This document shows, in pieces, positions 2,338-38,104 of a stretch of DNA of 41,081 nt (positions are counted from its first letter, which is position 1; each line of letters opens with the position of its first letter). The position numbers and the translations under genes are program-made. The notes below the pieces were generated by a model. The model was not told the origin of the DNA. It worked only from the letters and a program-made list of their open reading frames with translations, and ran no database searches. The stretch is from Verrucomicrobiales bacterium (GTDB lineage: Bacteria > Verrucomicrobiota > Verrucomicrobiia > Limisphaerales > UBA11320), in the NCBI GenBank assembly GCA_016793885.1, contig JAEUHE010000053.1, positions 1-41,081 on the forward strand. The letters run 5' to 3'.

Positions 2338-2604
2338 ATGAACTATGGGGCAGAGAACGTGGATTTGCGAGACGTCCGGTTCACTCCGGAGCTCCTGAGC
2401 GCCATCCCTGAGGCGACCGCCCGGATGTATTCGGTGCTCCCAATCGCGGATGCGATTGACGGTCTTGTGATAGCTACGGCGTATCCCTTCAATCTGGAGG
2501 CGATTGACGATCTACACCAGATCGTGGGCAGGGATATCGAAATTCGATGCGCAGATGCGGGCCAGCTTCGTGTTTTCATCAAGAATCATTACGGCGGAGA
2601 TTAG
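2338..2604 (+). CDS. Free-standing GspE/PilB N-terminal (MshEN-like) domain protein
   Basis: 88 residues. The sequence from FTPELLSAIPEATARMYSVLPI through VIATAYPFNLEAIDDL and IEIRCADAGQL to IKNHYGG closely follows the type II secretion/type IV pilus ATPase N-terminal domain (GspE_N): P-x-x-x-A-x-x-x-x-x-LP(I/L), then a short hydrophobic strand, N, D(D/E)L, and a closing YYG-like motif. Here that domain stands alone, with no ATPase following. The N-terminal paired RLG/LxxxQ motifs used by MshEN to bind c-di-GMP are absent, so ligand binding cannot be claimed. It may act as an adaptor to a secretion or pilus ATPase, or have been co-opted by a mobile cassette. Confidence 0.75.
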   Translation: MNYGAENVDLRDVRFTPELLSAIPEATARMYSVLPIADAIDGLVIATAYPFNLEAIDDLHQIVGRDIEIRCADAGQLRVFIKNHYGGD

Positions 2605-2636
2605 CTGTGACTAGTCCATCGCCGAACCGCTACTCG

Positions 2637-2748
2637 ATCCAACAGCCCTCAGCCTCCGAGTTTTTCACATGATCACCGTTCCTGCATCTCAGATTCCGCC
2701 TGAGTTGGCTCCCGGTCGGCGGCCTGTGGCTCAGTGGATTCGTTCGAC
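2637..2748 (+). repeat. attC-like recombination site, family B copy 2
   Basis: Left core ATCCAAC (2637-2643) matches RYYYAAC; right core GTTCGAC (2742-2748) has one mismatch to GTTRRRY. It is about 80% identical by eye to 1650-1759 over its full length, including the shared CATGATCACCGTT segment in the centre. Arms around CAACAGCCC and GGCCTGTGG face each other. Confidence 0.6.
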
Positions 2749-2754
2749 AACGGA

Positions 2755-2948
2755 ATGATCCAAGTCTGCTGGAAAACGATTCGTGGGTTCGCAACGCTAG
2801 GCGTGCTGCTCTGGTTTGTCGTGCTTGCGTTGATGCCCGTCTATGGCTGATTCCGCTCTTTATCCTCTGGATTCTTGCCGGCTTGTTCACCGTGTGGAAG
2901 GTCCGTTGGTGGTGCGCAATGAAGAGCCGAACAAACTCAGTCGACTGA
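2755..2948 (+). pseudogene. Small two-helix membrane protein gene, apparently frameshifted
   Basis: An ATG at 2755, 6 bases after the attC-like right core, opens a frame for 31 residues (one hydrophobic helix around GVLLWFVVLAL) and stops at TGA 2848-2850. The sequence then stays open in another frame to the TGA at 2946-2948, encoding a second convincing membrane helix (LWLIPLFILWILAGLFTVW) followed by a basic tail. Joining the two would give a protein of about 64 residues typical of small membrane cassette genes. The break may be a true mutation or a sequencing error. The second frame is also open upstream but has no standard start. Confidence 0.4.
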
Positions 2949-2991
2949 ACCTTCGCTAGCGCGCCGGGCACTCACCTCGAAAACGTTGGGC
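2926..2991 (+). repeat. Possible short attC-like site (family E)
   Basis: GTTGGGC (2985-2991) is an exact GTTRRRY core located 10 bases before the next ATG. A possible partner GCCGAAC (2926-2932) is one base away from its reverse complement GCCCAAC. The 66-bp length is close to the classical 59-base-element size. The inner arms are poorly paired, so only the right core is well supported. Confidence 0.35.
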
Positions 2992-3001
2992 GTATTGAGC
3001 C

Positions 3002-3349
3002 ATGAATTCCGATGCACTTTCTCGTCAAGTCATGAGGCTCGCACAGCGCAAAAGCCGGAAGGTCGGACGAGTGTTGACTCGTGAGGAGATTCTTCGATTA
3101 CATGTTCAGACAGTGGAGCCTTGGAAGCGCATTCTCATTTTTGCGATGGGACTCTTAGTCGGCGCCTTCTCGTTTCTATGCTTTCGCGTGGGAGCACCTG
3201 TTTGGATTTGGGTGGGGTTCGCTTTGTGTTCTGCAGTTATCGTTCTCTGCGGAGCGTTCGGTCGCAAGGCGTATCTCGATCGTGAGCTTCAGAAAATGAA
3301 GGATGAAGGAGCGACGAGATTGCTGGATGCGATCATCAACGGATTGTGA
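3002..3349 (+). CDS. Small two-helix membrane protein of a cassette
   Basis: 115 residues from ATG 3002. The N-terminal 40 residues are basic and probably cytoplasmic (RLAQRKSRKVGR), followed by two hydrophobic helices (ILIFAMGLLVGAFSFLCF and VWIWVGFALCSAVIVLC) and a charged helical tail ending in LLDAIINGL, so both ends are predicted cytoplasmic. No family is recognised. It is flanked by GTTRRRY cores (2985 upstream, 3450 downstream), which frame it as a cassette. Confidence 0.65.
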   Translation: MNSDALSRQVMRLAQRKSRKVGRVLTREEILRLHVQTVEPWKRILIFAMGLLVGAFSFLCFRVGAPVWIWVGFALCSAVIVLCGAFGRKAYLDRELQKMKDEGATRLLDAIINGL

Positions 3350-3352
3350 GGC

Positions 3353-3456
3353 GTCGACAATGTCGTTCATCCGGGAGGGTTCTGGGCGTAAGTTCATATC
3401 ATGAAAGTTCTTAGGTATACCCCATACCGGCGCGTCCCTGAGTGGTTTCGTTGGAC
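3353..3456 (+). repeat. Possible attC-like site (family F)
   Basis: GTTGGAC (3450-3456) is an exact GTTRRRY core placed 4 bases before the ATG at 3461. The left boundary is unclear; GTCGACA at 3353-3359, just after the stop codon of the previous gene, is a weak match to the reverse complement GTCCAAC. Arm pairing is poor. The main support is the repeated layout of the array and the perfect right core. Confidence 0.35.
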
Positions 3457-3460
3457 GTCT

Positions 3461-3868
3461 ATGCGCATCTTACCTTATCTGGCAGTTCTTTGCCTGGCGC
3501 TCACGGGGTGCCAGTTTACTCCGTCACCCACCAGGCAGCCTGTTACCACGAACGATGTGATCGGCGTGTGGTCGTTCACTGAGGACTACTCCAAGACCAC
3601 GGTATTCCTGACGTTCATGCCATCAGGAGTTTTCACTCAGCAGGTTGTTGCCACCACACAAACGAACACCGGGGTTGGCAATTGGACGTTGGATGGACCG
3701 AATTTGCAGCTCACAGGTTTTTTGGCGCAGACCGGCTTCGGATGGAAGCCCGATTCGATACGCTGGTATTTCATCGATGGCGACAAAAGGAAGTTGGAGA
3801 TTTTCGGTGGCGCGTTTCCGGATCCGGACGCTTTCCAGCACTTGAGCTATTTGAGAGCGGCACCATGA
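3461..3868 (+). CDS. Small predicted outer-surface lipoprotein of a cassette
   Basis: 135 residues. The ATG at 3461 gives a textbook lipoprotein signal: MRILPYLAVLCLALTGC with lipobox LTGC, Cys at residue 17. An earlier in-frame ATG at 3401 would add 20 basic residues, but the attC-like right core at 3450-3456 falls between the two, which settles the start at 3461. The mature part (VIGVWSFTEDYSKTTVFLTFMPSGVFTQQV, then a GNWTLDGPNLQLTG motif) resembles the lipocalin-like beta-strand domains of small secreted proteins that begin with a G-x-W motif. The function is unknown. Confidence 0.75.
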   Translation: MRILPYLAVLCLALTGCQFTPSPTRQPVTTNDVIGVWSFTEDYSKTTVFLTFMPSGVFTQQVVATTQTNTGVGNWTLDGPNLQLTGFLAQTGFGWKPDSIRWYFIDGDKRKLEIFGGAFPDPDAFQHLSYLRAAP

Positions 3869-3884
3869 CACATCACGATCGGAC

Positions 3885-4012
3885 GTCCAACGAGTTCGTG
3901 GATCGAACCACCGTCCGCATCCGGAGTGCTGACACTAGTATCATCACTACACCATCTACTTCGTTGAGCGCCTTCCTACGGCGGAGGTCGCTCACGGTTG
4001 GTCGTCGGTGGG
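3885..4012 (+). repeat. attC-like recombination site, family C copy 2
   Basis: Left core GTCCAAC (3885-3891) matches RYYYAAC and lies 16 bases after the stop codon. The element is homologous to 2188-2313 throughout (CGAACCACCG on the left, CTTCGTTGAGCGCC in the middle, GGCGGAGGTCG on the right). The right core is degenerate: GTTGGTC at 3997-4003 or the aligned CGTCGGTG near 4004-4010. It ends just before the ATG at 4014. Confidence 0.6.
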
Positions 4013-4013
4013 C

Positions 4014-4442
4014 ATGAAGCGCGTTTGGCTTTCGGATTGTCGGTCGCTCATCCATCTCCTGGTCCTTGGATTAATACGAAGCATGTCGACACGGTGGACA
4101 TCGAGCGGCGATCAGGAACACCCCACTCCCCAACACCTTGTGCGAGCGATCCTGGCTCATCTCATCGAGGCGGCTGATAGTTCTTCTTGGGCTCACTTCG
4201 AGGTCATTGCGCAGGAAGGGTGGTATAGAAATCTGCTGTGGGGCAAGGAGCCATGGGTTGAAGTTGCATACGTGGACCACGGTTGGTTGCAACTCATGGA
4301 TCTGAGGCCAGCTTTTGGCGGACCTGACTTTTGTCGAAGCTCGCCGTGTGCCTCTTTCGCTCCTCCTTCCTTCGACGCAAGCCACGCCTATCCAAGTTAT
4401 TGCGCATCGCGACCGATTATTTCATACGTACGTATGAAATAA
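4014..4442 (+). pseudogene. Frameshifted cassette gene of unknown function
   Basis: The ATG at 4014 (or 4083, MSTRWTSSG) opens a frame running to TAA 4440-4442. The first part to about 4305 looks like a real protein (HLVRAILAHLIEAADSSSWA, EVAYVDHGWLQLMDL). After that the annotated frame becomes Ser/Pro/Cys-rich, while the neighbouring frame gives a much more natural sequence (LLADLTFVEARR, then IQVIAHRDRLFHTYV). A one-base slip near 4305 therefore seems to have broken the gene. The tail runs into a perfect palindrome (4413-4446). The family is not recognised. Confidence 0.5.
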
Positions 4443-4446
4443 TCGG
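4413..4446. repeat. 34-bp perfect palindrome centred on TACGTACGTA
   Basis: Each 17-base arm is the exact reverse complement of the other, with the axis between 4429 and 4430; the core is CATACGTACGTATG. A second, partly degraded copy lies at 4584-4615. It could be a dimeric operator, a cruciform or the scar of a mobile element. It is not followed by a T-run, so it is not a typical terminator. Confidence 0.8.
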
Positions 4447-4449
4447 GAA

Positions 4450-4874
4450 ATGGTTACTCCTGATTCACAGTGTGCAGCCCTGCTGAGAACGCTATTCTGG
4501 CTCTGGCTGACGGCTTTGCGCTTCGGCATCGATGTTCATGCTGTCGCTGATCTGGTGCCTGAGGACAAGTTTCGGCCGCTACAGATTAAACTATACGTAC
4601 GTATGGAACAATCCGTCGGGGGACACTTGGGTGTCTGAAGCAGGGCTCGTTCCCAATAACAATCGGCTGGTTGACGTCAGCGCGATACGCGATACGTGAA
4701 ATGAGGCTGCTGGGGGAACTGCAGCTGAGCGGTAGTCAAATTACTCGACTGACCCTTCCACCCTCACTCGGGGCCTTACAGGTACTGGATCTGAGCGCGA
4801 ATCCACTCACCCGATTCGTGCTCTGGGAGCCACTGGCTGGGAAATGGCAACGAAGCACCGAATTTATGCCATGA
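4450..4874 (+). pseudogene. Leucine-rich-repeat protein remnant split over three frames
   Basis: Three overlapping frames each carry a plausible piece. 4450-4600 encodes a hydrophobic N-terminal part ending FRPLQIKLYV. The next frame encodes WNNPSGDTWVSEAG then VPNNNRLVDVSAIR. 4671-4874 encodes LRR-like text (LLGELQLSGSQITRLTL, then LQVLDLSANPLTRFVL). The frames are rejoined exactly if one copy of the tandem ACGT at 4595-4602 and one copy of the tandem GCGATAC at 4682-4695 are removed. The product would be about 137 residues. It is therefore either a gene inactivated by two short tandem duplications or one affected by assembly errors. Confidence 0.5.
4584..4615. repeat. Second, degraded copy of the TACGTACGTA palindrome
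   Basis: Aligned without gaps to 4415-4446, 25 of 32 positions match, including the complete 12-base core ATACGTACGTAT at 4593-4604. The arms no longer pair fully. The copies are about 170 bp apart and lie within decayed coding sequence. Confidence 0.6.
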
Positions 4875-5098
4875 GCTGTCCTTCGCCTCACACCATCAAC
4901 GTTTCGACCGAGACGGTGGATCCAACAAATGAATCTCGTAACAAATCGGGAGGCCTTCGGCGGGAACGTAGTCACGTTGCCTAATGTCTGTCCCCCCCCC
5001 AGATTCTTCGTGAGATTGTCTTTTGGCCGCTGTCGAATGTAGTGAATTACCTGCGATGTTTTCAGGGCTACCGTCATAGGAGGTGGGGGCTGTAAGGA
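4875..5098. other. Intergenic region with a C9 tract; possible attC remnant
   Basis: No convincing gene. A run of nine C residues lies at 4992-5000. ATCCAAC at 4919-4925 fits an attC left core, but no matching right arm is seen. A Shine-Dalgarno-like TAGGAGG lies about 15-20 bases upstream of the following start codon at 5099. Confidence 0.4.
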
Positions 5099-5566
5099 AT
5101 GATTTCGGTGTGGGTTATGCATCCGCGAGTGATCACTGTGATGTTGTTGATGGTTCCGCTCGTTGCGAGCGCGAATCCGGTCATGGTGGATGGTCAGTCA
5201 CTCCTGGCGTTCTCGGTGGTGGCTTTGTGCGCGCTGGTGATCGAGTCGGGAATGGTCACGCTTACTTTGGCCAGTTGCGGACTTTTCATCGTTCCAGCAT
5301 TCATCACCTCCATCTTCCTCAATGTGGGATTCTTTCTGTTGGGCTTTGTCCCGCTTAGCGATCGAGTGTCTCTGTGGATTCTCGAGCCGGGCGTGGTTCT
5401 TGCGGATGCGATCCTCATTAAACTCATGTCGGCCATCCCCATCCTCCAGGATGCGGGGTTTGAGGGGGTAGGGTGGCGACGCGCTCTTCTGGCTTCGTTG
5501 CTGGGTAACACTTCGTCATTCTTCGTCGGTGTCATCCTCTGCGGTGCTCCATGGGTCGTGCACTAG
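5099..5566 (+). CDS. Predicted integral membrane protein, function unknown
   Basis: 155 residues from ATG 5099 (an internal ATG at 5117 is an alternative). The N-terminus VITVMLLMVPLVASAN resembles a signal peptide or first helix and is followed by hydrophobic segments (LLAFSVVALCALVIESGMVTLTLASCGLFIV, ITSIFLNVGFFLLGFVP) and a final helix (LGNTSSFFVGVILCGAPW), about four or five in total. An acidic residue sits inside the second segment (VIESG). An AGGAGG motif lies upstream. The family is not recognised, and it is not flanked by an attC-like element, so it probably lies outside the cassette array. Confidence 0.7.
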   Translation: MISVWVMHPRVITVMLLMVPLVASANPVMVDGQSLLAFSVVALCALVIESGMVTLTLASCGLFIVPAFITSIFLNVGFFLLGFVPLSDRVSLWILEPGVVLADAILIKLMSAIPILQDAGFEGVGWRRALLASLLGNTSSFFVGVILCGAPWVVH

Positions 5567-5680
5567 CCCAGCAGCCCTTAAGGGACGGAGCAGAGATAAA
5601 TCTGGGTTTTGTTGGAGGAGTTCTAGCAGGATGCCGATGACGACAGCAGGAATTACGTACAACCGGAGAGACGCGATCTT

Positions 5681-8347
5681 ATGTCGAAATCAATCTGCAA
5701 TGGGATAAGCAGGCCTAGTCGGCCATGGCATGGCTTGATCCTGGCTTTCATGGTTCATCTCGAGCTCGCGGCGCAGTTTTACGCGCCGCGCACGGAAGAG
5801 CACGATCCGGCCCAACGCTTTTTTCTGACCGAGGTATGTCGGCTTCTGGCCTGGCGTGAGAATGGATCCGAATCCAAACTCGCCACGATCACGAACTCGG
5901 TTTATCCCCTGCGCACCGGTGGTGTCGATTGGCACCTCAAGTTCCTTTCTCCCTCCGGAAGTCTCTCCAAGACCGGGCTCGTGAGCTATTCCACGAACCT
6001 GCTGGAGCAGGGGGATGGATACTATCGCGAGGTGTATCGGAAGGTTCAGGCGCTTGGCTGGGCACCTGTTCCTAAGGCCCTGCCCGAGGAGATACGAAAA
6101 GCCTATTGGCGCGGGGCCTTGCGAGCGAAGGTGTCGCGCGAGGAGAGTCTGGCTGAGGGCTTTGGGATGGTGACCAAAGGGGGTCAGGCATGGGGGGCAA
6201 TCGAGGCGGCAGAACTCTCGGGGTTGCTGACCCATGCGGTGCTTCCTGGAGTGGCGGGGCGGGCCAGCATTGACTCTGTTCTCCTGGCCCGAGCATTTGG
6301 CTGGCTAGCGTTTGCTGAGGCGGCGAGTTCGGCGTCCCTTGCCGACCTTTACATCCCCGGACTATTCCTCTCCGGGAGAGAGCGAATCGCGCGCTCGATG
6401 TGGAAAGAGGCTGCCTCCAAGGGGCTGGTCCCGCCGAATGCGCTCACGTCGGCCTGGGGGGTCTGGCTTGGTCAAACCAAGTCGCGTCCATTCTATCAGT
6501 CCGCCGTCACGAACCGCTATTTGCCCATGCTGATGCCGATGTTGGTGTACGATGAACTGGTGAACAGCAGCGGAAATCTGCTTGAGGAGTTTCTTCCCGC
6601 CCTGGTGGATGCCAAGAACGCCATGTCGCTTCACAACTTTGGTCCGTTTCTCTCGACCCAGATGGGTGTCGGGGCTGGCCATTTTATGGACGGAGGGTGG
6701 CCCGAACTTCAGCGCGCCGCGTGGCTGCGCTTGATCCAAAGCCGGCCAGCCGAGTTCTTTGGGCCGACCAACTTCAGCTCTGCATTGAAGCAGAGTGTGG
6801 CTGCACGTCAGGCAGCGGGCGCTTCCAAAACGGCGGCGGACCAGAGTATTCCCGGGCTTAGGGAGCTCGCCCCGCTCCTTCGGCTTGGTCAGATCGAAGG
6901 GGTGGGTCCCCTGGCACCTACCGCAGTCGCGACCGATCGCGATCTTCTCAACTACGGATGGGAAGCGGCAGGTTTGCAGATGGGAGCCCGCTATCAATTC
7001 GTAAATCACCGGTGGGGAGTCCATGAGGTCGGCAAATCCATTCGCCAGGCCGCTCGCACTGCCGCGGAAGGCTGGACGCCGTTTTTCGAGAACGAGCGGG
7101 CGTCCAAAGTGGCGAACTATGACGCCAGCCTTCGTCGGCTGGAGCTCGTCGAAGGGCTGTTCCAGTTGGTCGGATTCAACCGTCATGCCTATGCCGATGC
7201 GGGGCCTGAGAACCCCAGATCCGCCCAGCGATTTGTCCGCCGCGCTTACCTTCGTCCCTGGGACGCGGAGTGGCAGTGGCGAACTCTCTTTGATGGAGGC
7301 GACAGCGTTTCGAATATTGTTCCTCATTTGCGGTGGATGGCCAATGAGGCTGGACCCCGGGGATTGGTGGTGGGGTTGCGCTATCTGGCATCAGTCGGTG
7401 TTCAAGGGGTTCAGGAGCTGCCGGGAGCGCTGGCGGCACGTGGCGAACTAGCCGAGCGGCTGCCTCAAAAAACCGAGTTATACCTGGAGACTCGCGCTCT
7501 GGTTCCGACGAACTTTGTGGTCGCTGGGGAGGTGAAAACCGTGGACCAACAGCGACTGGACCAGGCGAGGGAATTGGAACGGATGTATTGGGACACCGAT
7601 ACTGAGGAGCTGGGGCGTCGAACCTTGGATGCCTATCTGCTGGCGGACGCCTACCCGTCCACCGTGCGTTTCTACAGTCAGATTCGCACCAACCTGACCG
7701 ATACCATCTCCTTCTCGCATCGACTCGGACAAAGCCTTTTCCTCCTCGGCTACTTTCAAACCAATGACCTTCTGCAGTCCTGGGCGGTCGAGAACAGTCG
7801 ATCCGGCAGCAGCTCGGATCTGCAACTGGGGATTTACCGTGCGGCAGCCAAGAATGACCGGAAAGCCCTCGCGGCCGCAGTCCAGGACTACATCGAGCGC
7901 TATGGATCAGATACCGGACCCGATGATCCACTCCAGAAGCTGCAAGGCTTCCTCCCATTGCTCCCGGCTCTCTCCGATCCGAAGAGCCCCAAATACACCG
8001 AGGCTTTGGAATATTTTTCGGGGTCAGATCGGTGGTCGATCTTGCGCTGGATGTGGGTTCGGCGGTTCGAACTTCCTCAGGAAGATGCCATCACATTTCT
8101 GGGAGGCCGGGAGAATGAGCCGTTCCTAGGTTTCCTGGTTCAATTGCTGCTGAAAGATCAGGAGGCCATGGAGAGGATGGTCAGAGCCTATTTTGGAAAT
8201 CCGAGGAATCTTGAGGTCGGCCGTTCCTTCGTCATTCGTTATCTTTACGCGCAGCACGCCCAGAAGAAGCCAACGATTCCTGATGAGAATATGCGTCCTG
8301 CGCAAGCCAAGACGCTCCGCCAGGAAATCGCCGAGTGGCTGCGGTGA
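5681..8347 (+). CDS. Large exported helical protein of unknown function
   Basis: 888 residues. The N-terminus has a basic stretch followed by HGLILAFMVHLELAAQ, a probable signal peptide with cleavage around residue 32. The mature protein is rich in Leu, Ala, Arg and Trp, with alternating helical segments (for example LRRLELVEGLFQLVGFNRHAY and LQSWAVENSRSGSSS) that suggest an alpha-solenoid or TPR-like scaffold, but no regular repeat or catalytic motif is visible. The C-terminus is basic and helical (AKTLRQEIAEWLR). It is a single gene, convergent with the chemoreceptor fusion. Most likely a periplasmic or outer-membrane-associated lineage-specific protein. Confidence 0.7.
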   Translation: MSKSICNGISRPSRPWHGLILAFMVHLELAAQFYAPRTEEHDPAQRFFLTEVCRLLAWRENGSESKLATITNSVYPLRTGGVDWHLKFLSPSGSLSKTGLVSYSTNLLEQGDGYYREVYRKVQALGWAPVPKALPEEIRKAYWRGALRAKVSREESLAEGFGMVTKGGQAWGAIEAAELSGLLTHAVLPGVAGRASIDSVLLARAFGWLAFAEAASSASLADLYIPGLFLSGRERIARSMWKEAASKGLVPPNALTSAWGVWLGQTKSRPFYQSAVTNRYLPMLMPMLVYDELVNSSGNLLEEFLPALVDAKNAMSLHNFGPFLSTQMGVGAGHFMDGGWPELQRAAWLRLIQSRPAEFFGPTNFSSALKQSVAARQAAGASKTAADQSIPGLRELAPLLRLGQIEGVGPLAPTAVATDRDLLNYGWEAAGLQMGARYQFVNHRWGVHEVGKSIRQAARTAAEGWTPFFENERASKVANYDASLRRLELVEGLFQLVGFNRHAYADAGPENPRSAQRFVRRAYLRPWDAEWQWRTLFDGGDSVSNIVPHLRWMANEAGPRGLVVGLRYLASVGVQGVQELPGALAARGELAERLPQKTELYLETRALVPTNFVVAGEVKTVDQQRLDQARELERMYWDTDTEELGRRTLDAYLLADAYPSTVRFYSQIRTNLTDTISFSHRLGQSLFLLGYFQTNDLLQSWAVENSRSGSSSDLQLGIYRAAAKNDRKALAAAVQDYIERYGSDTGPDDPLQKLQGFLPLLPALSDPKSPKYTEALEYFSGSDRWSILRWMWVRRFELPQEDAITFLGGRENEPFLGFLVQLLLKDQEAMERMVRAYFGNPRNLEVGRSFVIRYLYAQHAQKKPTIPDENMRPAQAKTLRQEIAEWLR

Positions 8348-8374
8348 AGCGGGAGCTTTGTGGGCCCTTGGCGG

Positions 8375-8424
8375 AGAGCTTTGCGCCGTGTGTCGCCGCC
8401 CGGATGCCAGCGAATAGGCCTCGT
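8375..8424. repeat. 50-bp duplication, intergenic copy
   Basis: 46 of 50 bases match 11719-11768 in the same orientation, which is internal to the lipoprotein gene. This copy sits between two convergent genes and does not continue either reading frame. Confidence 0.75.
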
Positions 8425-8432
8425 CAAGGAGG

Positions 8433-11060
8433 TTAAAAGTCCCTGAACTGACCGGGCTGCGCGTGCTTGAGTTCCGAGGGGTTGGGCCGGTCGGGTGCGG
8501 AGCGCGATGCCCTGGGTCCAGGGGCAGTCCCAGATGGTCTTCTCTGGCTGGTTTTGCTGGTGGCACGCGTGGTCAGCTCATCGGTCGCAGTGGAAGAGTG
8601 CGGCTTCGCTCGCTGCCCGGAGGGCGTAGTCCTCCCTCCGACCATAGTCTGGAGATGGGTCACAGCGTCATTGACCGCCTTGGCCTGGGAGCTGAGTTGC
8701 TCGCTGGCGCTGGCGCTTTCCTCAGCGCACGCCGCATTCGCTTGCGTGACCTTGTCCAACTGAGATATCGCGAGGTTGATCTGTTGGATACCGGTGGATT
8801 GTTCAGTCATGGCTGTTGCAATGCCGGCTGCCTGCTCGTCGACCTCCTTCACGCGGCCTACGATCTCTCCTAACGTCTGCCCCACCTCTTGAGCCGCGGT
8901 CGCGACTGTGTCCACGCTCGCGACCACCTTCTCGTTCACAGTGACTCCCTGAGCCGATTGCTGAACAGCTGCCTCGATCAGTACTGCCGTTTCCTTGGCG
9001 GCCGTGGCACTTCGCTGGGCCAAGTTGCGAACCTCGTCCGCAACCACGGCAAATCCCAACCCTGCTTCGCCTGCGCGTGCAGCCTCGACCGCGGCGTTGA
9101 GCGCGAGAATATTGGTTTGGAAGGCGATTTCGTCGATGGTTTTGATGATTTTGGAGACATTCAAGCTGGAAGCTCGGATACCCTCCACCGCGGTTCGCAT
9201 TTCGCCCGCAGCGGACCGAATCGTATCCAGCGACTCGTTCAGCCGCTGGTTGGATTGAACCCCCGAGTCGGCTGACACCTTCGTGGCCGCGGCCAAATCC
9301 TTGGTAGCCTTGGCGGAATCCGCGCTCCGCTTTACCATGCTGGCGATTTCCTCGAGTGCTGCGCTGGTCTCCTCCAAAGAAGCTGCTTGTTGGCTGGCTC
9401 CCCCGGCCAGGGTCTGGCTGGCGGACGCCACTTGTGCTGAGGCGGCGGCCGTCTGTTCCGCGCCGGCGAGAAGTTCGGAGGCGATCTCGCGCAGGGGTGG
9501 GACGATGGATCGGCTGATAACCCAGGTTAGGAACGCACCCAACGCTAGCGCGGCGATCCCGATACTAACGATCGCTGCTTGGGCTTCGGTCATCTGCCGT
9601 TGCATGCGCGGCCCGGCTTCGTTCTGATCCGCCAGAAACGCCGCTTCCAAGCCTTCCATTTCCTCTTCGATCAAAGTTCCGAGTTCGCCCATCTGGCGGT
9701 TGATACGAGTTGCCTCGGCATTCTTGCCGGCGAACGCGAAGGTCTTCAGCTCCTTCAGCAGACCGGCATGGACCTCAACTTGAGATTCGATCGTTTTGAT
9801 CGTTTTATGACGATCGGGCTCGGTGATCTGTTCCTCGATCTCATCCAGTGCTTCCCTGAGGAGTTGGCTGTGGGACTCGTAGCGGTTCAGCGTTTCCTGA
9901 CTGCGGGCCAGCATCAGATCCTTGGCTGCGATTTGCATGAGCAGAAACTGTTCGAGAACGGCAGCTCCCTCATTGCTATGCCGAGCATCCGTTCGGAATT
10001 CCTTGAAGCCTTCGAGTGCGGTGTGGAGGCCTTCATATCCCGCGAAGCCCACTCCGGCGAGCACCGCGAGCAGGGCGGCGAATCCAAGCGAGATTCGCTG
10101 GGGAACCCGCCATCGCGGCAACACCGAGTTGGCGAACCACCAGGCGGCGGCCATGAGCAGGAGTAAAGCACTGGCTGTCCCAAGGACCCAATGCATCACC
10201 CGGGCTTCGGCCGGTGCGGCGCTGGGCGTGGTGCGAGCGTGTGTGTTAGCTTCTGCGCCGGAGACGCCTGCTTCCTTCGCTTGATGCGGCGCGTGGGGAG
10301 CTATTTCTGAATGACCCGACTCCGCCTGATGTTGGTTCCCGCTGGTGTACGAGAGCAGTCGCGATTGCTCCTGGTGCTCGCCAAGCCAGGTCACCGTTCC
10401 TGATTGGAGATCATAAATTGCGCCCATCACTTTGAGCCGGCCTGCTTGGACCAGCGATCGAACTTCAGGACTTCGCTTGAACAGGTCATCGATGGAGATC
10501 CAAATATTGGCTTGGACTGCTTCGAGCATCAAGGCCTCACCCACCAGGCTTGGGCTGACTGATTTGGCCCGGGCGGCGGCTGGAGCGATGTTGTCGACCA
10601 GGGAGGGGATGCTTCCGTGGACTTCGGCTCCCTCGACCACTGCTTTTACGGCGCCGCATGAGGTATGGCCCATCACTATCAAGAGCGGGGTCTTCAGGTG
10701 TCCCACGCCATACTCTATGGTGCCCACTTCATCCGTGTCCGAGACATTGCCCGCCACCCGGATCACGAAAAGGTCACCCAGCCCTTGATCCAGAATCAAC
10801 TCGGGTGCAAGTCTTGAATCCGAGCAGGTCAGGATGGTTGCAAACGGAGTCTGGCCGGTCGCCAGGGCCGCACGGCGGGCGGAGTCCTGGTTTGGATGTA
10901 GTGGCTTGCCTGCTACATAGCGCGAGTTACCCTCGGCGAGACGCTGGCGCGCCTGGTCCACCGTGATACCACTATCCACTGATGCCTGCGCGATCGAGCT
11001 AAAGCCCTGGGCCAGCAGGGTTACGAGCATAACTGCCAGTGTCCTAAGGAGTGCGTTCAT
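8433..11060 (-). CDS. Periplasmic beta-carbonic anhydrase fused to a methyl-accepting chemotaxis protein
   Basis: 875 residues with a signal peptide at about 1-27. Residues 30-230 form a complete beta-class carbonic anhydrase: C79-S-D81-S-R83 and H132-T-S-C135 supply the zinc ligands (C79, H132, C135) and the Asp-Arg dyad. A His-rich flexible linker (about 235-288) precedes a hydrophobic segment at 290-312 and another at 323-345. Residues 346-495 are a helical bundle of the ligand-binding type, 496-518 a third membrane helix, and about 540-805 the MCP signalling coiled coil with its hairpin tip ([20 protein letters not shown], 644-663). Three membrane spans place both the anhydrase and the helical bundle in the periplasm and the signalling domain in the cytoplasm. 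No clear HAMP is seen. A GGGGAGGGG ribosome site lies upstream. The likely role is a receptor whose input is linked to CO2, bicarbonate or pH. No che genes lie in the window. Confidence 0.93.
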
Positions 11061-12504: not shown

Positions 12505-13356
12505 ATGTCGCAGACGACTTTGACTTTAGGGCACTCTCCGGATCCGGATGATGCTTTCATGTTTTACGGGCTGGCCAAGGGGCTGGTCCCGTCGAACGGC
12601 TTTGAGTTTGAACATATTCTCCAGGATATTCAGACCCTGAACGAGCGGGCCACCCGCGGCGAGTTGGATATTTCGGCAGTGAGCATTCATGCCTACGCCT
12701 ACTTGTCGGACAAGTACGTGCTGCTGCCCAGCGGGGCGAGCATGGGAGATGGCTACGGGCCGATGCTGGTGTCCCGCGCTGCCCACTCGCGTGAAGAGGT
12801 GATCCGACGGCGGATCGCGGTGCCGGGGACCATGACGAGCGCCTTCCTGGCCCTCCAGCTGTGGGCCGGCAAGGGAGCCAGCGAGCTGGACTATATCGTA
12901 GTCCCGTTTGACCAAATCTTTTCGGCAGTGAAGTCGGGCCAGGCGGACATCGGCCTGATCATCCACGAGGGCCAGCTGACCTACCAAAATGAGGGGCTGC
13001 AGGTCTGTGCGGATTTGGGAGCGTGGTGGAAGCAGAACCAGGATGGTCTTCCCCTTCCGCTCGGCGGTAACGTCATTCATCGTCGTTTCGCCCCACCGGT
13101 GCGCAAAGCGATCTCCGATATTCTAACCGCCAGCATCCAATACAGTTTGGATCATCGTCCGGAGGCGGTTCGGCACGCGCTGCAGTACGCTCGTGATATG
13201 GGAGTCGAACTCGCCGATCGGTTCGTCGGGATGTATGTGAACCATTGGACTCTCGACTATGGAGACGCGGGACGGGAGTCCATCCGCCGTTTTCTGGGAC
13301 AGGCGTTTGAGCGGGGGTATCTAAGCAAGAAGGCGGAGCTGGAGTTCGTCGCATGA
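12505..13356 (+). CDS. mqnD: 1,4-dihydroxy-6-naphthoate synthase (futalosine menaquinone pathway)
   Basis: 283 residues. It follows the MqnD family closely: SPDPDDAFMFYGL near the N-terminus, then the motif around ILQDIQTLNERA, GPMLVSR, IIHEGQLTYQNEGLQ and DLGAWWKQ, with GLPLPLGGN after it. MqnD converts cyclic dehypoxanthine futalosine into 1,4-dihydroxy-6-naphthoate using a periplasmic-binding-protein-like fold; it acts in the cytoplasm. MqnA is a relative, but the IIHEGQLTY and DLGAWW motifs point to MqnD. The stop overlaps the dxr start by four bases (ATGA), so the two are translationally coupled. No other mqn gene is present in the window. Confidence 0.95.
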   Translation: MSQTTLTLGHSPDPDDAFMFYGLAKGLVPSNGFEFEHILQDIQTLNERATRGELDISAVSIHAYAYLSDKYVLLPSGASMGDGYGPMLVSRAAHSREEVIRRRIAVPGTMTSAFLALQLWAGKGASELDYIVVPFDQIFSAVKSGQADIGLIIHEGQLTYQNEGLQVCADLGAWWKQNQDGLPLPLGGNVIHRRFAPPVRKAISDILTASIQYSLDHRPEAVRHALQYARDMGVELADRFVGMYVNHWTLDYGDAGRESIRRFLGQAFERGYLSKKAELEFVA

Positions 13357-33296: not shown

Positions 33297-33753
33297 AAGT
33301 CCCTGCCTATTTGCCACAGGGTAGGGGAGATATAAATCGAAAAGAGAGGAATAATCCGCTGGATCCCGGCCTTGGCCGTGACGGGGGCGGAGCCGGCCGG
33401 CAACCGAGACCGAGCGACGTGTCCGGCTCTGGTGCGAGGCTGTCTCGTTTCGTGCAACGAGTAGCGCCGGTCTGCTGGCCTTTTGCCCGAGCTCCGAGAA
33501 GGAGGCCGATCCATGGGTTGCGCCTCAGCCACTTGCGGAGAAGGAGGCGCGAGCTGCGTTTCCCTGTCGGCGGGCCCGCGGAGGGCCCAAGATCTGCTGG
33601 AGTAAGGTTTACATTGGTGAACGGTGGCTCCTCTGGTGGACCGAGGGCCGAAGCGGGTGGAGGGAAGGTCCAGCCTTGGATCGGATGACATCGGATTGGC
33701 TGTACAGGTGGGGTGTCTTCCGCTTCTGGATTCGTAGGTGTTGCTTCTTTCGC
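33297..33753. other. Intergenic region between gatB and the signalling operon
   Basis: 457 bp, GC-rich, with no supported gene; open frames here have no family likeness. It holds the promoters of gatB and the kinase operon. Short inverted segments such as GGCCGTGACGGGGGCGGAGCC and GGGCCCGCGGAGGGCCC may form structure. Confidence 0.35.
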
Positions 33754-35682
33754 ATGAAGACGATGAACAAGGACTCAGCTCGGATCCGGGAAGGATTTGG
33801 ACAGGTGGAGGCCGTCCCGGTGACGGGTTCGAATTCTAGTCCAGGTGCGACGTTGCCACCGTCAGCCGATTTTCACTGGAGTGCAGAATGGCGGCGGCTC
33901 GGGATTCTCTCGCTGATGGGCGTTGTGGTGGTCTGGGGCGTTCTGATGTTTTTTCCGGGCCGACTGGCGACTTCCGCAGCGGTGCTGCTCAGCGCCTCCT
34001 TTGCCGCCTACGCGGCGCATGCGGTCACTAGGCCCCTGAGACGGCAGGCTGCCGAGCTGCGTGCCAGCGAGGAGCGAAATCGGGTAATCGTCGAGTCGGC
34101 TCAGGACGCCTTTGTGCTCATGGATTCGCAGGGCAGAATTGTGCAGTGGAACCGCCAAGCTGAGGTCATCTTTGGCTGGCCGCGTGCCGAGGTGATTGGT
34201 GCCATCCTGGCTGACACCATCGTTCCCGTGCGTTACCGCGAGGCGCATCAGAAAGGGTTGGACAGATTTCTTCAGTCGGGAGTGGGGCCGGTCCTCAGCC
34301 GGACGATCGAAATTTCCGCCTTGCGACGCGATGGAAAAGAGTTTCCGGTCGAGCTGAGCATCAGTCCGATCCAGGTGGGGGAGGGATTCTGTTTCAGCGC
34401 GTTCCTGCGGGATATCACCGCGCGAAGGGAGGCGGAGGAGCTGTTGCGTCGGTCCCGCGACGAGACGGAGCTGCTGCTGGCCTCATTGCCGGCGGTGGTC
34501 ATTGTGGTGGACACTCGCGGTCAGGTGGTGCGGTGGAACCCCGCTGCGGAGCACTTGTTCGCGATCAAGGCCTCAGAAGTGGTAGGGAAGCACTTTTTCG
34601 ACGCCCCCATCAAATGGAAGTGGAACCTACTGCGGCAGGCGGTGATTGATTGCTTTGCCCACAGCCATCCCATCGAGCTGGCGAACGTGGCCTTTGAGAA
34701 ACCGAACGGCAAGGACGGGTGCCTGCAGCTCATCCTCTCTCCGTCGCGGCAGAACGACGCGGCGGGTTTGAACTTTATCGTCCTGGGAATCGACATGACC
34801 GACCATCGGCTGCTCGAGGGCCAGCTTCGTCAGGCCCAGAAGATGGAATCGATCGGCCAGCTCGCTGCTGGGATCGCCCACGAGATCAACACGCCCACTC
34901 AGTTCATTGGCGACAACCTGCGGTTTCTCAAGGACGGGTTTTCGGATCTGGGCAGCGTGGTCGCCTGTCTGGAGCGGATGCTTCAGGAGGCAGCTGCGGG
35001 CGGATCAATTTCGGCGTCCGAGCTGGATGCGGCGCGCACGGCGGTTGAGCAGGCTGACTTGACGTATCTCATGGGGGAGATTCCCAAGGCCATCAACCAG
35101 TCCCTCGACGGCACGGATCGCGTGGCGAAGATAGTCCGGGCGATGAAGGAGTTTTCGCATCCCAGTGTGGACGAGCGAAAACCCATCGACCTCAATCGAT
35201 CCATTGAGAGCACGCTGACCGTGGCGCGCAACGAGTGGAAGTATGTGGCCGACCTGGTTCTGGAGCTTGGCTCCGACCTCCCGCCCGTCCCGTGCTTTCC
35301 GGGGGACTTCAACCAGGTGGTTTTGAACTTGGTGGTAAACGCGGCGCATGCGATCGCCGAGACTCCAGCCGTCAAGTCCGGAGGGAAGGGAAAGATTACT
35401 GTTCGGACGTTCTTGGTCGACGGCTGGGTGGAGATACAGATCCAGGACACCGGCATGGGGATTCCAGCCGCCATCAAGGACCGGATCTTCGATCCCTTCT
35501 TCACCACCAAGGAGGTGGGCAAGGGCACTGGCCAGGGTCTATTCATTGTCCACGCCGTGGTGTCCGAGAAGCACGGCGGTCGAATCTCTTTTGAAAGCAC
35601 AGTGGGTGTTGGAACCACCTTCAAGGTCCAGCTCCCCCTGCGCCCGCAGGTGAACGCCACTAACAACACTCGAGCTGCATGA
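33754..35682 (+). CDS. Membrane PAS-domain sensor histidine kinase
   Basis: 642 residues from ATG 33754 (starts at 33685 and 33763 are alternatives; none has a good ribosome site). Two membrane helices (ILSLMGVVVVWGVLMFFPG and SAAVLLSASFAAYAAH) are followed by two PAS domains, the first with SAQDAFVLMDSQGRIVQWN and DITARREAEE, the second with SLPAVVIVVDTRGQVVRWN. The H-box is AGIAHEINTPTQFIGDN with the phospho-acceptor His at 34879-34881. The ATPase motifs are NLVVNAAHAIAE (N), DTGMGI (G1), FDPFFTTK (F) and GTGQGLFIV (G2). No receiver is attached. It overlaps the next gene by ATGA and so signals probably through the two downstream receivers. Confidence 0.93.
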   Translation: MKTMNKDSARIREGFGQVEAVPVTGSNSSPGATLPPSADFHWSAEWRRLGILSLMGVVVVWGVLMFFPGRLATSAAVLLSASFAAYAAHAVTRPLRRQAAELRASEERNRVIVESAQDAFVLMDSQGRIVQWNRQAEVIFGWPRAEVIGAILADTIVPVRYREAHQKGLDRFLQSGVGPVLSRTIEISALRRDGKEFPVELSISPIQVGEGFCFSAFLRDITARREAEELLRRSRDETELLLASLPAVVIVVDTRGQVVRWNPAAEHLFAIKASEVVGKHFFDAPIKWKWNLLRQAVIDCFAHSHPIELANVAFEKPNGKDGCLQLILSPSRQNDAAGLNFIVLGIDMTDHRLLEGQLRQAQKMESIGQLAAGIAHEINTPTQFIGDNLRFLKDGFSDLGSVVACLERMLQEAAAGGSISASELDAARTAVEQADLTYLMGEIPKAINQSLDGTDRVAKIVRAMKEFSHPSVDERKPIDLNRSIESTLTVARNEWKYVADLVLELGSDLPPVPCFPGDFNQVVLNLVVNAAHAIAETPAVKSGGKGKITVRTFLVDGWVEIQIQDTGMGIPAAIKDRIFDPFFTTKEVGKGTGQGLFIVHAVVSEKHGGRISFESTVGVGTTFKVQLPLRPQVNATNNTRAA

Positions 35683-36902
35683 AAACGCGAATTCTGTTCG
35701 TCGACGATGAGCAAATGGTTCTGTCCGGGCTTCAGCGGATGCTGCGCCCCATGCGGCAGGAATGGGAGATGGTATTTGCCAACAGCGGGGCTGAGGCGCT
35801 GGCGCTGGCTGCCACTCAATCGTTCGAGGTGATTGTTTCCGACATGCGCATGCCGGGCATGAACGGCGCGCAGTTGCTCCAGGAGATGATGAGGCTTCAC
35901 CCGCGCACCGCCCGGTTCATTCTGTCCGGCTATGCCGACAAAGAATTGATCATGCAGTGCACCACCACTGCGCATCAGTTTCTGTCCAAACCGTGCGATG
36001 CCGAGGTGCTGATCAGCTGCATCAAGCGGGTTATCAGCATTGACGCGCGGCTTGAGAATGAAGCGTTAAAGGCCATGGTTTCAGGGCTGACGACCCTTCC
36101 CAGTCTGCCGAAGGTGTATGCGCAGCTGAACACCCAGTTGGAAAACTCGAGGAGCTCATCGGAGGTGATCGGCCGCTTGATCGCTCAGGATCCGTCCATG
36201 ACTGCCAAGGTTCTCCAGTTGGTTAACTCCGCCTTTTTCGGGCTTCAGCATCAGGTGGTGCATCCGGTGGAAGCGGTCGGTTTTCTGGGATTTGAGACCG
36301 TCAAGGCCCTGGTTCTCTGGGTTCACATCTTTGGAGAGCATATCGACCCGCAAGTTCCTGGCTTCTCCATGGACGGCTTGTCCCGGCATTGCCTGATGAC
36401 TGCGACGTTGGCGCGGGAAATCATCGTATCGCAGGGGCATGATCAAAAGGCGGGAGACGAGGCATTCACCGCGGGGCTCCTTCACGATATCGGCAAACTG
36501 ATCCTCGCCATCAACCTGCCTCAGCAATACGGCCGTGTGATCCACCACTCCGAGCAGGCGGGCTTGCCGCGCTGGCGTGCGGAGTGCGATATCCTCGGCG
36601 TGCACCATGCGGAACTGGGAGCCTATCTCATCGGGCTTTGGGGGCTTCCGTATGGAATCGTGGAGGCGGTCGGCTTGCATCACCATCCATCTGCTGGAGA
36701 GAGCCGGGTGCTTTCCGCACCTGGGGCGGTCCACATTGCCAACGCCCTGGTGCATGAGCTGAAGAGCGATGACTCCGAGGGCGTTGCTCAGCTCGATGAA
36801 GCCTATTTAGCCCGCATTGATTGTTTGACTGAACTCGAGGTGTGGCGCGGTCGCTTCCGCCTCAACTTGGCCCCTAAAAACTCACAGAAAGCGTGCGCAT
36901 GA
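35679..36902 (+). CDS. Response regulator with REC and HDOD domains
   Basis: 407 residues. REC domain at 1-120 with acidic pocket D9-D10, phospho-acceptor D55 in VSDMRMPGMNG and the conserved Lys in FLSKPCD. HDOD domain from about 135 to 340: LPSLPKVYAQLN, QDPSMTAKVLQLVNSAFFG, AVGFLGFETVKALVLW, AGLLHDIGKL and HHAELGAYLIGLWGLP. HDOD proteins organise signalling and often act with c-di-GMP systems; catalytic activity is not usually shown. The start overlaps the kinase stop (ATGA). Confidence 0.94.
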   Translation: MKTRILFVDDEQMVLSGLQRMLRPMRQEWEMVFANSGAEALALAATQSFEVIVSDMRMPGMNGAQLLQEMMRLHPRTARFILSGYADKELIMQCTTTAHQFLSKPCDAEVLISCIKRVISIDARLENEALKAMVSGLTTLPSLPKVYAQLNTQLENSRSSSEVIGRLIAQDPSMTAKVLQLVNSAFFGLQHQVVHPVEAVGFLGFETVKALVLWVHIFGEHIDPQVPGFSMDGLSRHCLMTATLAREIIVSQGHDQKAGDEAFTAGLLHDIGKLILAINLPQQYGRVIHHSEQAGLPRWRAECDILGVHHAELGAYLIGLWGLPYGIVEAVGLHHHPSAGESRVLSAPGAVHIANALVHELKSDDSEGVAQLDEAYLARIDCLTELEVWRGRFRLNLAPKNSQKACA

Positions 36903-38104
36903 AAAAGATCCTCTTTGTCGATGATGACGAGAACATCCTCGGTGCCTTCCAGCGACAGTTCCGTAAGCAGTACACGATCGAAACGGCGTTGGGACCCGAG
37001 CAGGGCCTGACGGCCATCGAGAGCGGCGACAGTTACGCCGTCCTGGTCGTGGACATGAATATGCCGGGTATGAACGGCGTGGAGTTCTTGAAGCGGGTGC
37101 GGGCGCGGTGTCCGGACATCGTCCGGGTGATGCTCACCGGAAATGCCGATCAGAATACGGCGGTGCAAGCCGTCAACGAAGGTCATATCTTCCGGTTTCT
37201 CAACAAGCCATGTTCTCCGGACCTGCTGGCCGGCGCGCTCGATGCCGGATTGCGTCAGCATGAGCTGATCACCGCCGAGCGCGACCTGCTGGAGAACACC
37301 CTGAGCGGGAGCGTTCGGGTTTTATCGGAGATGCTGTCCATGGCTCTGCCAAAAATTTTCGAGCGTTCACGCGCGATGAGGGAGGAGGTTCGCGTGCTGG
37401 CACGTCATTTGGGCGAGCGCAGCACCTGGGATGTGGAAGTGGCTGCCATGCTGGCGCAGATCGGCTTTGTCGCCATCCCGCCTGAGGTCATTTTGAAGGC
37501 GCGCGCGGGGCAGCCGCTCACCCCGACGGAGAAGCTGATGGTCGAGCGCGTGCCGGAGATTGGCCACAACCTGCTCGCCAAGATCCCGAGAATGGAAAAA
37601 GTGGCCCGCATCATTCTCTATCAGGCCAAGCAGTTCGACGGAGTGGGCTATCCTGCCGATGGAGTGGTGGGGGACAAGCTCCCGCTGGGCGCGCGTTTGC
37701 TGAAGTTCCTCGGTGATCTCTCGCAGCTTGAGGCCAAAGGGCTCACGCGAGCCAGCGCCCTCGAGCTGATGCGTTCGCGTCCGGGTCATTACGATCCCCT
37801 GGTTCTGGATGGGGCGATCGGATGTTTTGATCCTCAGTCGCAATCGTCTGTCGACAATGAGGTCCCGCCTGTCCCCATGAGCTTTAAGCAACTGAGCGTT
37901 GGGTTGGTCCTGGCGGCGAATGTGGAGACTCCGGACGGCTCGCTGATCGTCTGTGCCGGCAATGAGGTGACGCAGATATTGTTGGAGCGGCTGCGGAATT
38001 TCTCCACCACGGCTGGCATTCGCGAGCCGATCTACGTACGCGCTCTCAACAAGGCGGGGACGGCTCCGACCCTCCCGACCGTTCCGACCGCGGCGGCGGC
38101 TTAG
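36899..38104 (+). CDS. Response regulator with REC and degenerate HD-GYP domain
   Basis: 401 residues from ATG 36899, overlapping the previous stop by ATGA; a GTG at 36893 is an alternative. REC domain with D8-D9-D10 and phospho-acceptor D52 in VVDMNMPGMNG, then Lys in FLNKPCS. The second domain follows HD-GYP in layout (AAMLAQIGFVAIPPEVI, then a segment ending FDGVGYPADGVVGDKLPLGARLL), but the HD pair is AQ and the HH pair is YQ, so metal ligands are lost; DGxGYP is kept. It is therefore unlikely to hydrolyse c-di-GMP and may instead bind a partner. Confidence 0.9.
   Translation: MKKILFVDDDENILGAFQRQFRKQYTIETALGPEQGLTAIESGDSYAVLVVDMNMPGMNGVEFLKRVRARCPDIVRVMLTGNADQNTAVQAVNEGHIFRFLNKPCSPDLLAGALDAGLRQHELITAERDLLENTLSGSVRVLSEMLSMALPKIFERSRAMREEVRVLARHLGERSTWDVEVAAMLAQIGFVAIPPEVILKARAGQPLTPTEKLMVERVPEIGHNLLAKIPRMEKVARIILYQAKQFDGVGYPADGVVGDKLPLGARLLKFLGDLSQLEAKGLTRASALELMRSRPGHYDPLVLDGAIGCFDPQSQSSVDNEVPPVPMSFKQLSVGLVLAANVETPDGSLIVCAGNEVTQILLERLRNFSTTAGIREPIYVRALNKAGTAPTLPTVPTAAAA

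Follow-up and report, generated by a model that had tools for sequence, protein, structure and literature searches.

The window, as we call the whole 41,081-nucleotide stretch of DNA analysed here, carries on its reverse strand a single open reading frame for a protein of 875 amino acids that joins an enzyme to a chemoreceptor (MCP). Its parts follow one another in the order signal peptide, beta-carbonic anhydrase (CA) domain, 51-residue His-rich linker, transmembrane helix (TM), short loop, second TM, four-helix bundle (4HB), third TM and MCP signalling domain. The first-pass annotation of this DNA had described the gene as a fusion of these two domains with three membrane helices; its coordinates, strand and length were exact, and both domains were recovered by a Pfam search, with Pro_CA (PF00484) at residues 74-223 (E 4e-38) and MCPsignal (PF00015) at residues 620-772 (E 9e-44), together with a sub-threshold match to 4HB_MCP_1 at residues 317-473. 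Hydropathy analysis gave a signal peptide and TMs near residues 288-312, 321-343 and 493-517, and an AlphaFold model built from an alignment of 15 fusions agreed with it, so that the three helices stand. The model was confident for the CA and the bundle and contained a helix at 288-312; its mean pLDDT of 68 was lowered by a weak coiled coil, the linker and the tail. The positions of all features are collected in the table.

Table. Features of the fusion gene and its upstream neighbour in the window, and positions of the receptors without CA in their own loci
Feature	Residues	Position	Strand	Basis or remark
CA-4HB-MCP fusion gene	875 aa	8433..11060	(-)	single ORF, Pfam, same architecture in other genomes
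Signal peptide (predicted)	1-26	10983..11060	(-)	hydrophobic N-terminus ending in IAQA
Beta-carbonic anhydrase domain	35-236	10353..10958	(-)	PF00484; nearest solved relative Rv3588c (2a5v)
Zinc ligand C79 and Asp81-Arg83 dyad (CSDSR)		10812..10826	(-)	invariant in 16/16 covering rows
Zinc ligands H132 and C135 (HTSC)		10656..10667	(-)	invariant in 17/17 rows
His-rich low-complexity linker	237-287	10200..10352	(-)	pLDDT about 28
TM1	288-312	10125..10199	(-)	hydropathy and model helix
Cytoplasmic loop RWRVPQR and TM2	313-345	10026..10124	(-)	46% mean identity among fusions
Periplasmic 4HB	346-492	9585..10025	(-)	sub-threshold 4HB_MCP_1; model alignment
TM3	493-517	9510..9584	(-)	hydropathy
MCP kinase-control coiled coil	518-812	8625..9509	(-)	PF00015; Tsr-like
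14-residue insert, first coiled-coil arm	about 617-630	9171..9212	(-)	alignments
Hairpin tip region	641-720	8901..9140	(-)	77% mean identity among fusions
14-residue insert, second coiled-coil arm	about 716-729	8874..8915	(-)	alignment; symmetrical with first insert
C-terminal QFRDF		8436..8450	(-)	read from sequence; fits CheR-docking pentapeptide pattern x-[FWYH]-x-x-[FWYH]
Upstream neighbour gene	423 aa	11204..12475	(-)	no Pfam match
CA-less receptor, L295 (G774)		2750-4510		
CA-less receptor, L296 (G407)		2952-4736		
CA-less receptor, L297 (G883)		3204-5051		
CA-less receptor, L298 (G897)		2560-4299		

The other large neighbour of the fusion gene, encoding 888 amino acids (5681-8347), had no Pfam match. 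Further along the window lie a gene of a menaquinone biosynthesis family (PF02621, futalosine-pathway type; 12505-13356) and a signalling cluster (33676-38104) in which a PAS histidine kinase is followed by two response regulators, carrying an HDOD and an HD domain, respectively. No che genes were found among the annotated genes of the window contig.

The same architecture was present in 15 other genomes, giving at least 16 with the window in searches of the window's order, the Verrucomicrobiota and family f66. These genomes belong to two orders, namely to families of the window's order and to one family of another order. The same reading frame occurred in 4 of 320 genomes of the window's order (G269, contig CAIWMU010000004.1 of a Verrucomicrobia subdivision 3 metagenome-assembled genome; G094; G058; G056), and 11 more were found in the phylum and family f66 (G501, G888, G885, G489, G773, G794, G856, G364, G814, G899 and G865). 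The fusion in G865 ends at a contig end, and the mean identities among fusions given here were calculated from the 15 full-length copies. The genus-mates of the window genome lack the fusion and instead encode a free, secreted CA whose tail is rich in His. The draft assembly of the window genome has 274 contigs, which might invite the suspicion that a sequencing or assembly error had merged two genes, yet 15 independent genomes share the part order and TM1, and some of them are assembled into few contigs (7 for G489, 20 for G364); this arrangement in other genomes excludes chance and sequencing error, leaving an artefact with a negligible probability. Hence, the architecture is almost certainly real and the gene is one gene, as first annotated. 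At a further locus (L085; CAMCYN010000017.1, 5911-8448), a CA 63% identical to that of the window is followed about 600 bp downstream by an MCP frame on the same strand; a frameshift may have split a fusion here. The entry is labelled Akkermansia muciniphila, which looks doubtful.

The enzyme part was described at the outset as an intact CA with the zinc ligands C79, H132 and C135 and an Asp81-Arg83 dyad. All five residues were correctly placed when checked in the sequence, and the Pro_CA fold, the Cys-His-Cys ligand set and the dyad are kept. Structurally, the CA part of the model was closest to Mycobacterium tuberculosis Rv3588c (2a5v), with a Z score of 24.7 over 192 residues. Among the 15 full-length fusions, the MCP tip had a mean pairwise identity of 77%, followed by the CA with 64%, the 4HB with 31% and the linker with 28%, making the CA the best-conserved outer part of the protein. 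The difference between the CA and the 4HB, together with the invariant zinc and dyad residues, points to selection for a working site, and the CA is apparently catalytically competent.

The linker and the membrane helices bear on how this enzyme is held. The linker has 5 His among its 51 residues and was annotated as a His-rich linker; it is His-rich, but the trait belongs to the enzyme: His-rich tails are also seen on the group's free secreted CAs, and the CA-less receptors described below have linkers with just 1-3 His. Among the full-length fusions, the linker varies between 36 and 71 residues with 2-6 His, and in the model the stretch 240-283 is disordered. A rigid mechanical link through such a linker is unlikely, and its spread in length speaks for a flexible tether. 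The free secreted CAs of the group have no TM, the free MCPs start at the position of the loop and TM2, and the loop and TM2 of the window protein resemble the N-terminus of such free MCPs (for example, L002). We infer that TM1 is an extra helix that allows the CA to lie outside while the original N-terminus of the MCP stays inside. The enzyme and the putative ligand-binding bundle would thus lie on the same outer side, in agreement with the topology first predicted. The Pfam search of the 875-residue protein detected no HAMP domain after TM3; a HAMP between TM and hairpin is common in MCPs and not obligatory.

The bundle is common to all fusions and absent from ordinary MCPs. The stretch from the loop through TM2 and the 4HB to TM3 of each full-length fusion scored 70-295 bits against other fusions and at most 55 bits against the other MCPs that we fetched. 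A profile of this half recovered the fusions first when searched in 320 and in 250 genomes, and among its highest-scoring matches only fusions and their CA-less descendants had the sensor half in full length. By this sequence comparison, the TM-4HB-TM half is a single family by descent, and the CA has been inherited together with this bundle. The model of the bundle (residues about 351-491) aligned with the ligand-binding domain of MCP2201 over 141 residues with a Z score of 16.8 and an rmsd of 2.2, and with LytS-N with a Z score of 18.4, values to be read in the light of the generally high scores of helical bundles. With conservation this low, the 4HB shows no evident fixed pocket for bicarbonate.

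The annotated signalling domain was recovered, with the PF00015 match, a Tsr-like match and a conserved tip. Its hairpin stretch comprises 256 residues in the window protein versus 228 in the other full-length fusions, and these 28 additional residues place it in length class 40H versus 36H for the others. A free MCP of matching length class, L002 from genus-mate G002, groups with the window protein and has the same kind of inserts. C-termini resembling the QFRDF of the window protein were found in G269 and G094 and were missing from the f66 fusions. In a tree of the MCP halves the fusions are scattered, their signalling halves lying beside MCPs from their own hosts or from related ones. The TM-4HB-TM half being a single family, the scatter is explained by exchange of signalling halves, and we read it as a probable exchange that matched each receptor to its host's receptor array. 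Comparison of the window with loci L064-L067 gives a 40H/36H length-class swap inside one receptor family.

The genomic context is that of chemotaxis. CheA and flagellin were present in 11 of the 11 fusion genomes tested, and in G888 and G489 a cheW gene adjoins the fusion, 2-4 bp downstream. G489 also encodes a Cache-domain MCP upstream of the fusion and has cheA about 5 kb away. At L065 (G094; 2660-8517), two further MCP genes come after the fusion gene, and one of them carries an NIT (nitrate/nitrite) sensor domain.

Four receptors of the same family, in G774, G407, G883 and G897, lack the CA. They retain the hydrophobic, signal-peptide-like N-terminus, which is followed by a low-complexity linker, TM1, the loop, TM2, the 4HB, TM3 and the MCP domain, and they fall inside the fusion clade at three places on well-supported branches. 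The phylogeny indicates at least three deletions of the CA, each of which left the remainder of the receptor in place. A tblastn search found no CA remnants near the CA-less receptors. Inspection by eye did reveal a short scar at the N-terminus in G774: its receptor starts AVGPDGALQ where the CA domain of its sister G364 starts AVEPDVALQ. This scar of the first CA helix shows that in G774 the CA was deleted and not absent from the start. The survival of the receptor through at least three losses implies that the 4HB can work without the CA. The CA is thus under selection yet not essential to the receptor; it is a removable module.

The history of the fused enzyme is less simple than that of the bundle. 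Strict monophyly of the fused CAs, as expected for a single-clade origin, was rejected (p-AU 0.027), while monophyly including five nested or adjacent free CAs was not (p-AU 0.094), and this outcome suggests that the fused CA may have been separated, transferred or attached on more than one occasion. A 553-residue protein at L068 (G059; 8311-9972) has a related CA, a His-rich linker and TMs around a different helical bundle, unrelated to those of the fusions, and no signalling domain after TM3. A broken MCP behind this CA was considered and rejected, as no MCP remnant lies downstream, which points to a natural end after TM3.

We also analysed 67 distinct free CA loci of Verrucomicrobiota whose flanks were visible. 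Five of them adjoin an MCP gene on the same strand at a distance of 24-75 bp (expected, 0.15-0.27), four of the five CAs being closely related and the loci therefore not fully independent. Secreted CA genes adjoin MCP genes more often than chance, and all five MCP partners have 4HB-superfamily matches, some below Pfam's cut-off. A further such arrangement occurs in Magnetococcales, a group known for magnetotaxis, in which locus L086 (JADFYM010000020.1, 1942-8709) encodes on one strand two MCPs, a secreted CA and a third MCP, with a 4HB in all three MCPs; two other Magnetococcales CA loci had no MCP near. At L030 (G011; 4411-5772), a secreted protein contains two beta-CA domains in tandem.

We hypothesize that the fusion is a chemoreceptor linked to CO2, bicarbonate or protons, in which a CA tethered on a flexible periplasmic linker would sit above a dedicated 4HB sensor. 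The enzyme would equilibrate CO2, HCO3- and H+ at the receptor surface, and the 4HB would read the outcome through binding of bicarbonate or protons or through contact with a CA dimer. The signal would pass from TM3, without a HAMP domain, into an ordinary MCP hairpin and on to CheW/CheA and the flagella, the output being taxis toward or away from CO2, bicarbonate or the resulting pH change. That the CA has some role in signal change is probable. For the catalytic version of this receptor, in which catalysis, ligand and response direction are our inferences, we see an even chance. It is favoured by the kept catalytic residues, the high conservation of the CA and the repeated linkage of such enzymes to 4HB receptors, and the alignment of the 4HB with LytS-N, the reader of docked XylFII, can be counted for a tethered enzyme. 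More tentatively, turnover of the enzyme may itself be the sensing event, so that the receptor would read its own product and give the cell a sense devoted to CO2, the CA being a swappable module which evolution has added and taken away. The CA losses weigh against models with the CA as the only sensor: in G407, where the sole further CA is a short one of ordinary type, the 4HB must act without a fused enzyme. Against the catalytic reading counts the argument made for the animal receptor RPTP-gamma that a sensor of CO2/HCO3- should not consume what is measured (PMC9961601).

The main rival is docking of the CA dimer. Here the CA fold would itself be the sensor, binding of bicarbonate, CO2 or another anion at the zinc site, or a pH-dependent change between open and closed states, altering a CA dimer docked on the 4HB of the receptor dimer, with catalysis incidental. 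MCPs and beta-CAs are both built on dimers. CA assemblies are described in PMC7287614, which also lists Rv3588c, the nearest solved CA, among the type II beta-CAs and reports a pH-dependent open/closed site for it, and there is a precedent in LytS, whose 4HB is read out through docking of XylFII (PMC9769921). The disordered linker of variable length counts against tight mechanical coupling, and the fusions keep all the catalytic residues that RPTP-gamma has lost. Moreover, the tryptophan ahead of CxDxR, which we take to be part of the type II motif, is replaced by Ile or Val in the fusions. We consider this rival unlikely.

The third reading is a plain anchor: the receptor half would mainly hold a periplasmic CA at the membrane or pole, the CA having no signal role and the 4HB sensing something unrelated, for example an organic acid. 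The persistence of CA-less receptors in at least three lineages would fit an anchor, as would the alignment of the 4HB model with the citrate/malate-binding bundle of MCP2201 and the presence of free secreted CAs in the same genomes. However, the sensor half is a single family, full-length at top scores only in fusions and their CA-less descendants, and an anchor leaves the repeated independent linkage of secreted CAs with 4HB-type MCP genes unexplained; we judge it rather improbable. Finally, it is very improbable that the CA-like domain acts on another small molecule, such as carbonyl sulfide or carbon disulfide, that the receptor then reports, for although the model aligns with the carbonyl sulfide hydrolase 3vqj of the same fold (Z score 15.9), this lies far below the score of the genuine CA Rv3588c, which is nearest by both sequence and structure.

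Bacterial sensing of dissolved CO2 and bicarbonate is poorly known; in animals, this task falls to tethered CAs or to CA-like domains of receptors. Swimming Verrucomicrobiota with a CA-tipped receptor may steer by CO2, bicarbonate or enzyme-made acidity, and the CA-bearing receptors with their natural CA-deleted relatives offer a ready comparison for the role of tip catalysis in taxis. In the open-licence literature we found no description of a receptor with the CA-4HB-MCP layout, in line with the first-pass annotation, which knew of none; several known systems share parts of it. Rv3588c (2a5v, 1ym3) is 36-39% identical in the structure alignment and has the same zinc ligands and dyad, but its solved structures are not part of a receptor. 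A SulP transporter (L035), compared by eye, is also a membrane protein fused to a beta-CA, with the CA at the C-terminus of a transporter and no receptor. MCP2201 and LytS have a similar periplasmic four-helix bundle, and LytS also reads an accessory periplasmic protein, the sugar-binding protein XylFII, which docks on its bundle (PMC9769921); XylFII acts in trans, whereas the fusion carries an enzyme in cis. Helicobacter pylori TlpA and TlpD are receptors for bicarbonate and pH, with TlpA reported to respond to bicarbonate (PMC5245789), and thus resemble the proposed receptor in mediating bicarbonate/pH chemotaxis via MCPs, but they have no enzyme domain. Among animal systems, RPTP-gamma has an extracellular CA-like domain of the alpha-CA fold, devoid of catalysis, that is thought to sense CO2/HCO3- (PMC9961601). 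Like the fusion, it is a single-chain membrane receptor with a CA-like domain outside and a signalling domain inside; unlike the fusion, it signals through a phosphatase, and its alpha-CA-like domain no longer has the catalytic residues. The fusion does not have such a dead alpha-CA-like ectodomain, but combines a beta-CA of unrelated fold and intact site with an MCP output. The taste of carbonation involves the membrane-anchored CA4 of sour taste cells. There too a tethered extracellular CA makes CO2 sensible to the cell, although CA4 is a separate, lipid-anchored alpha-CA that is not fused to a receptor; the proposed receptor would be an unusual case of an enzyme serving as the ectodomain of a chemoreceptor.
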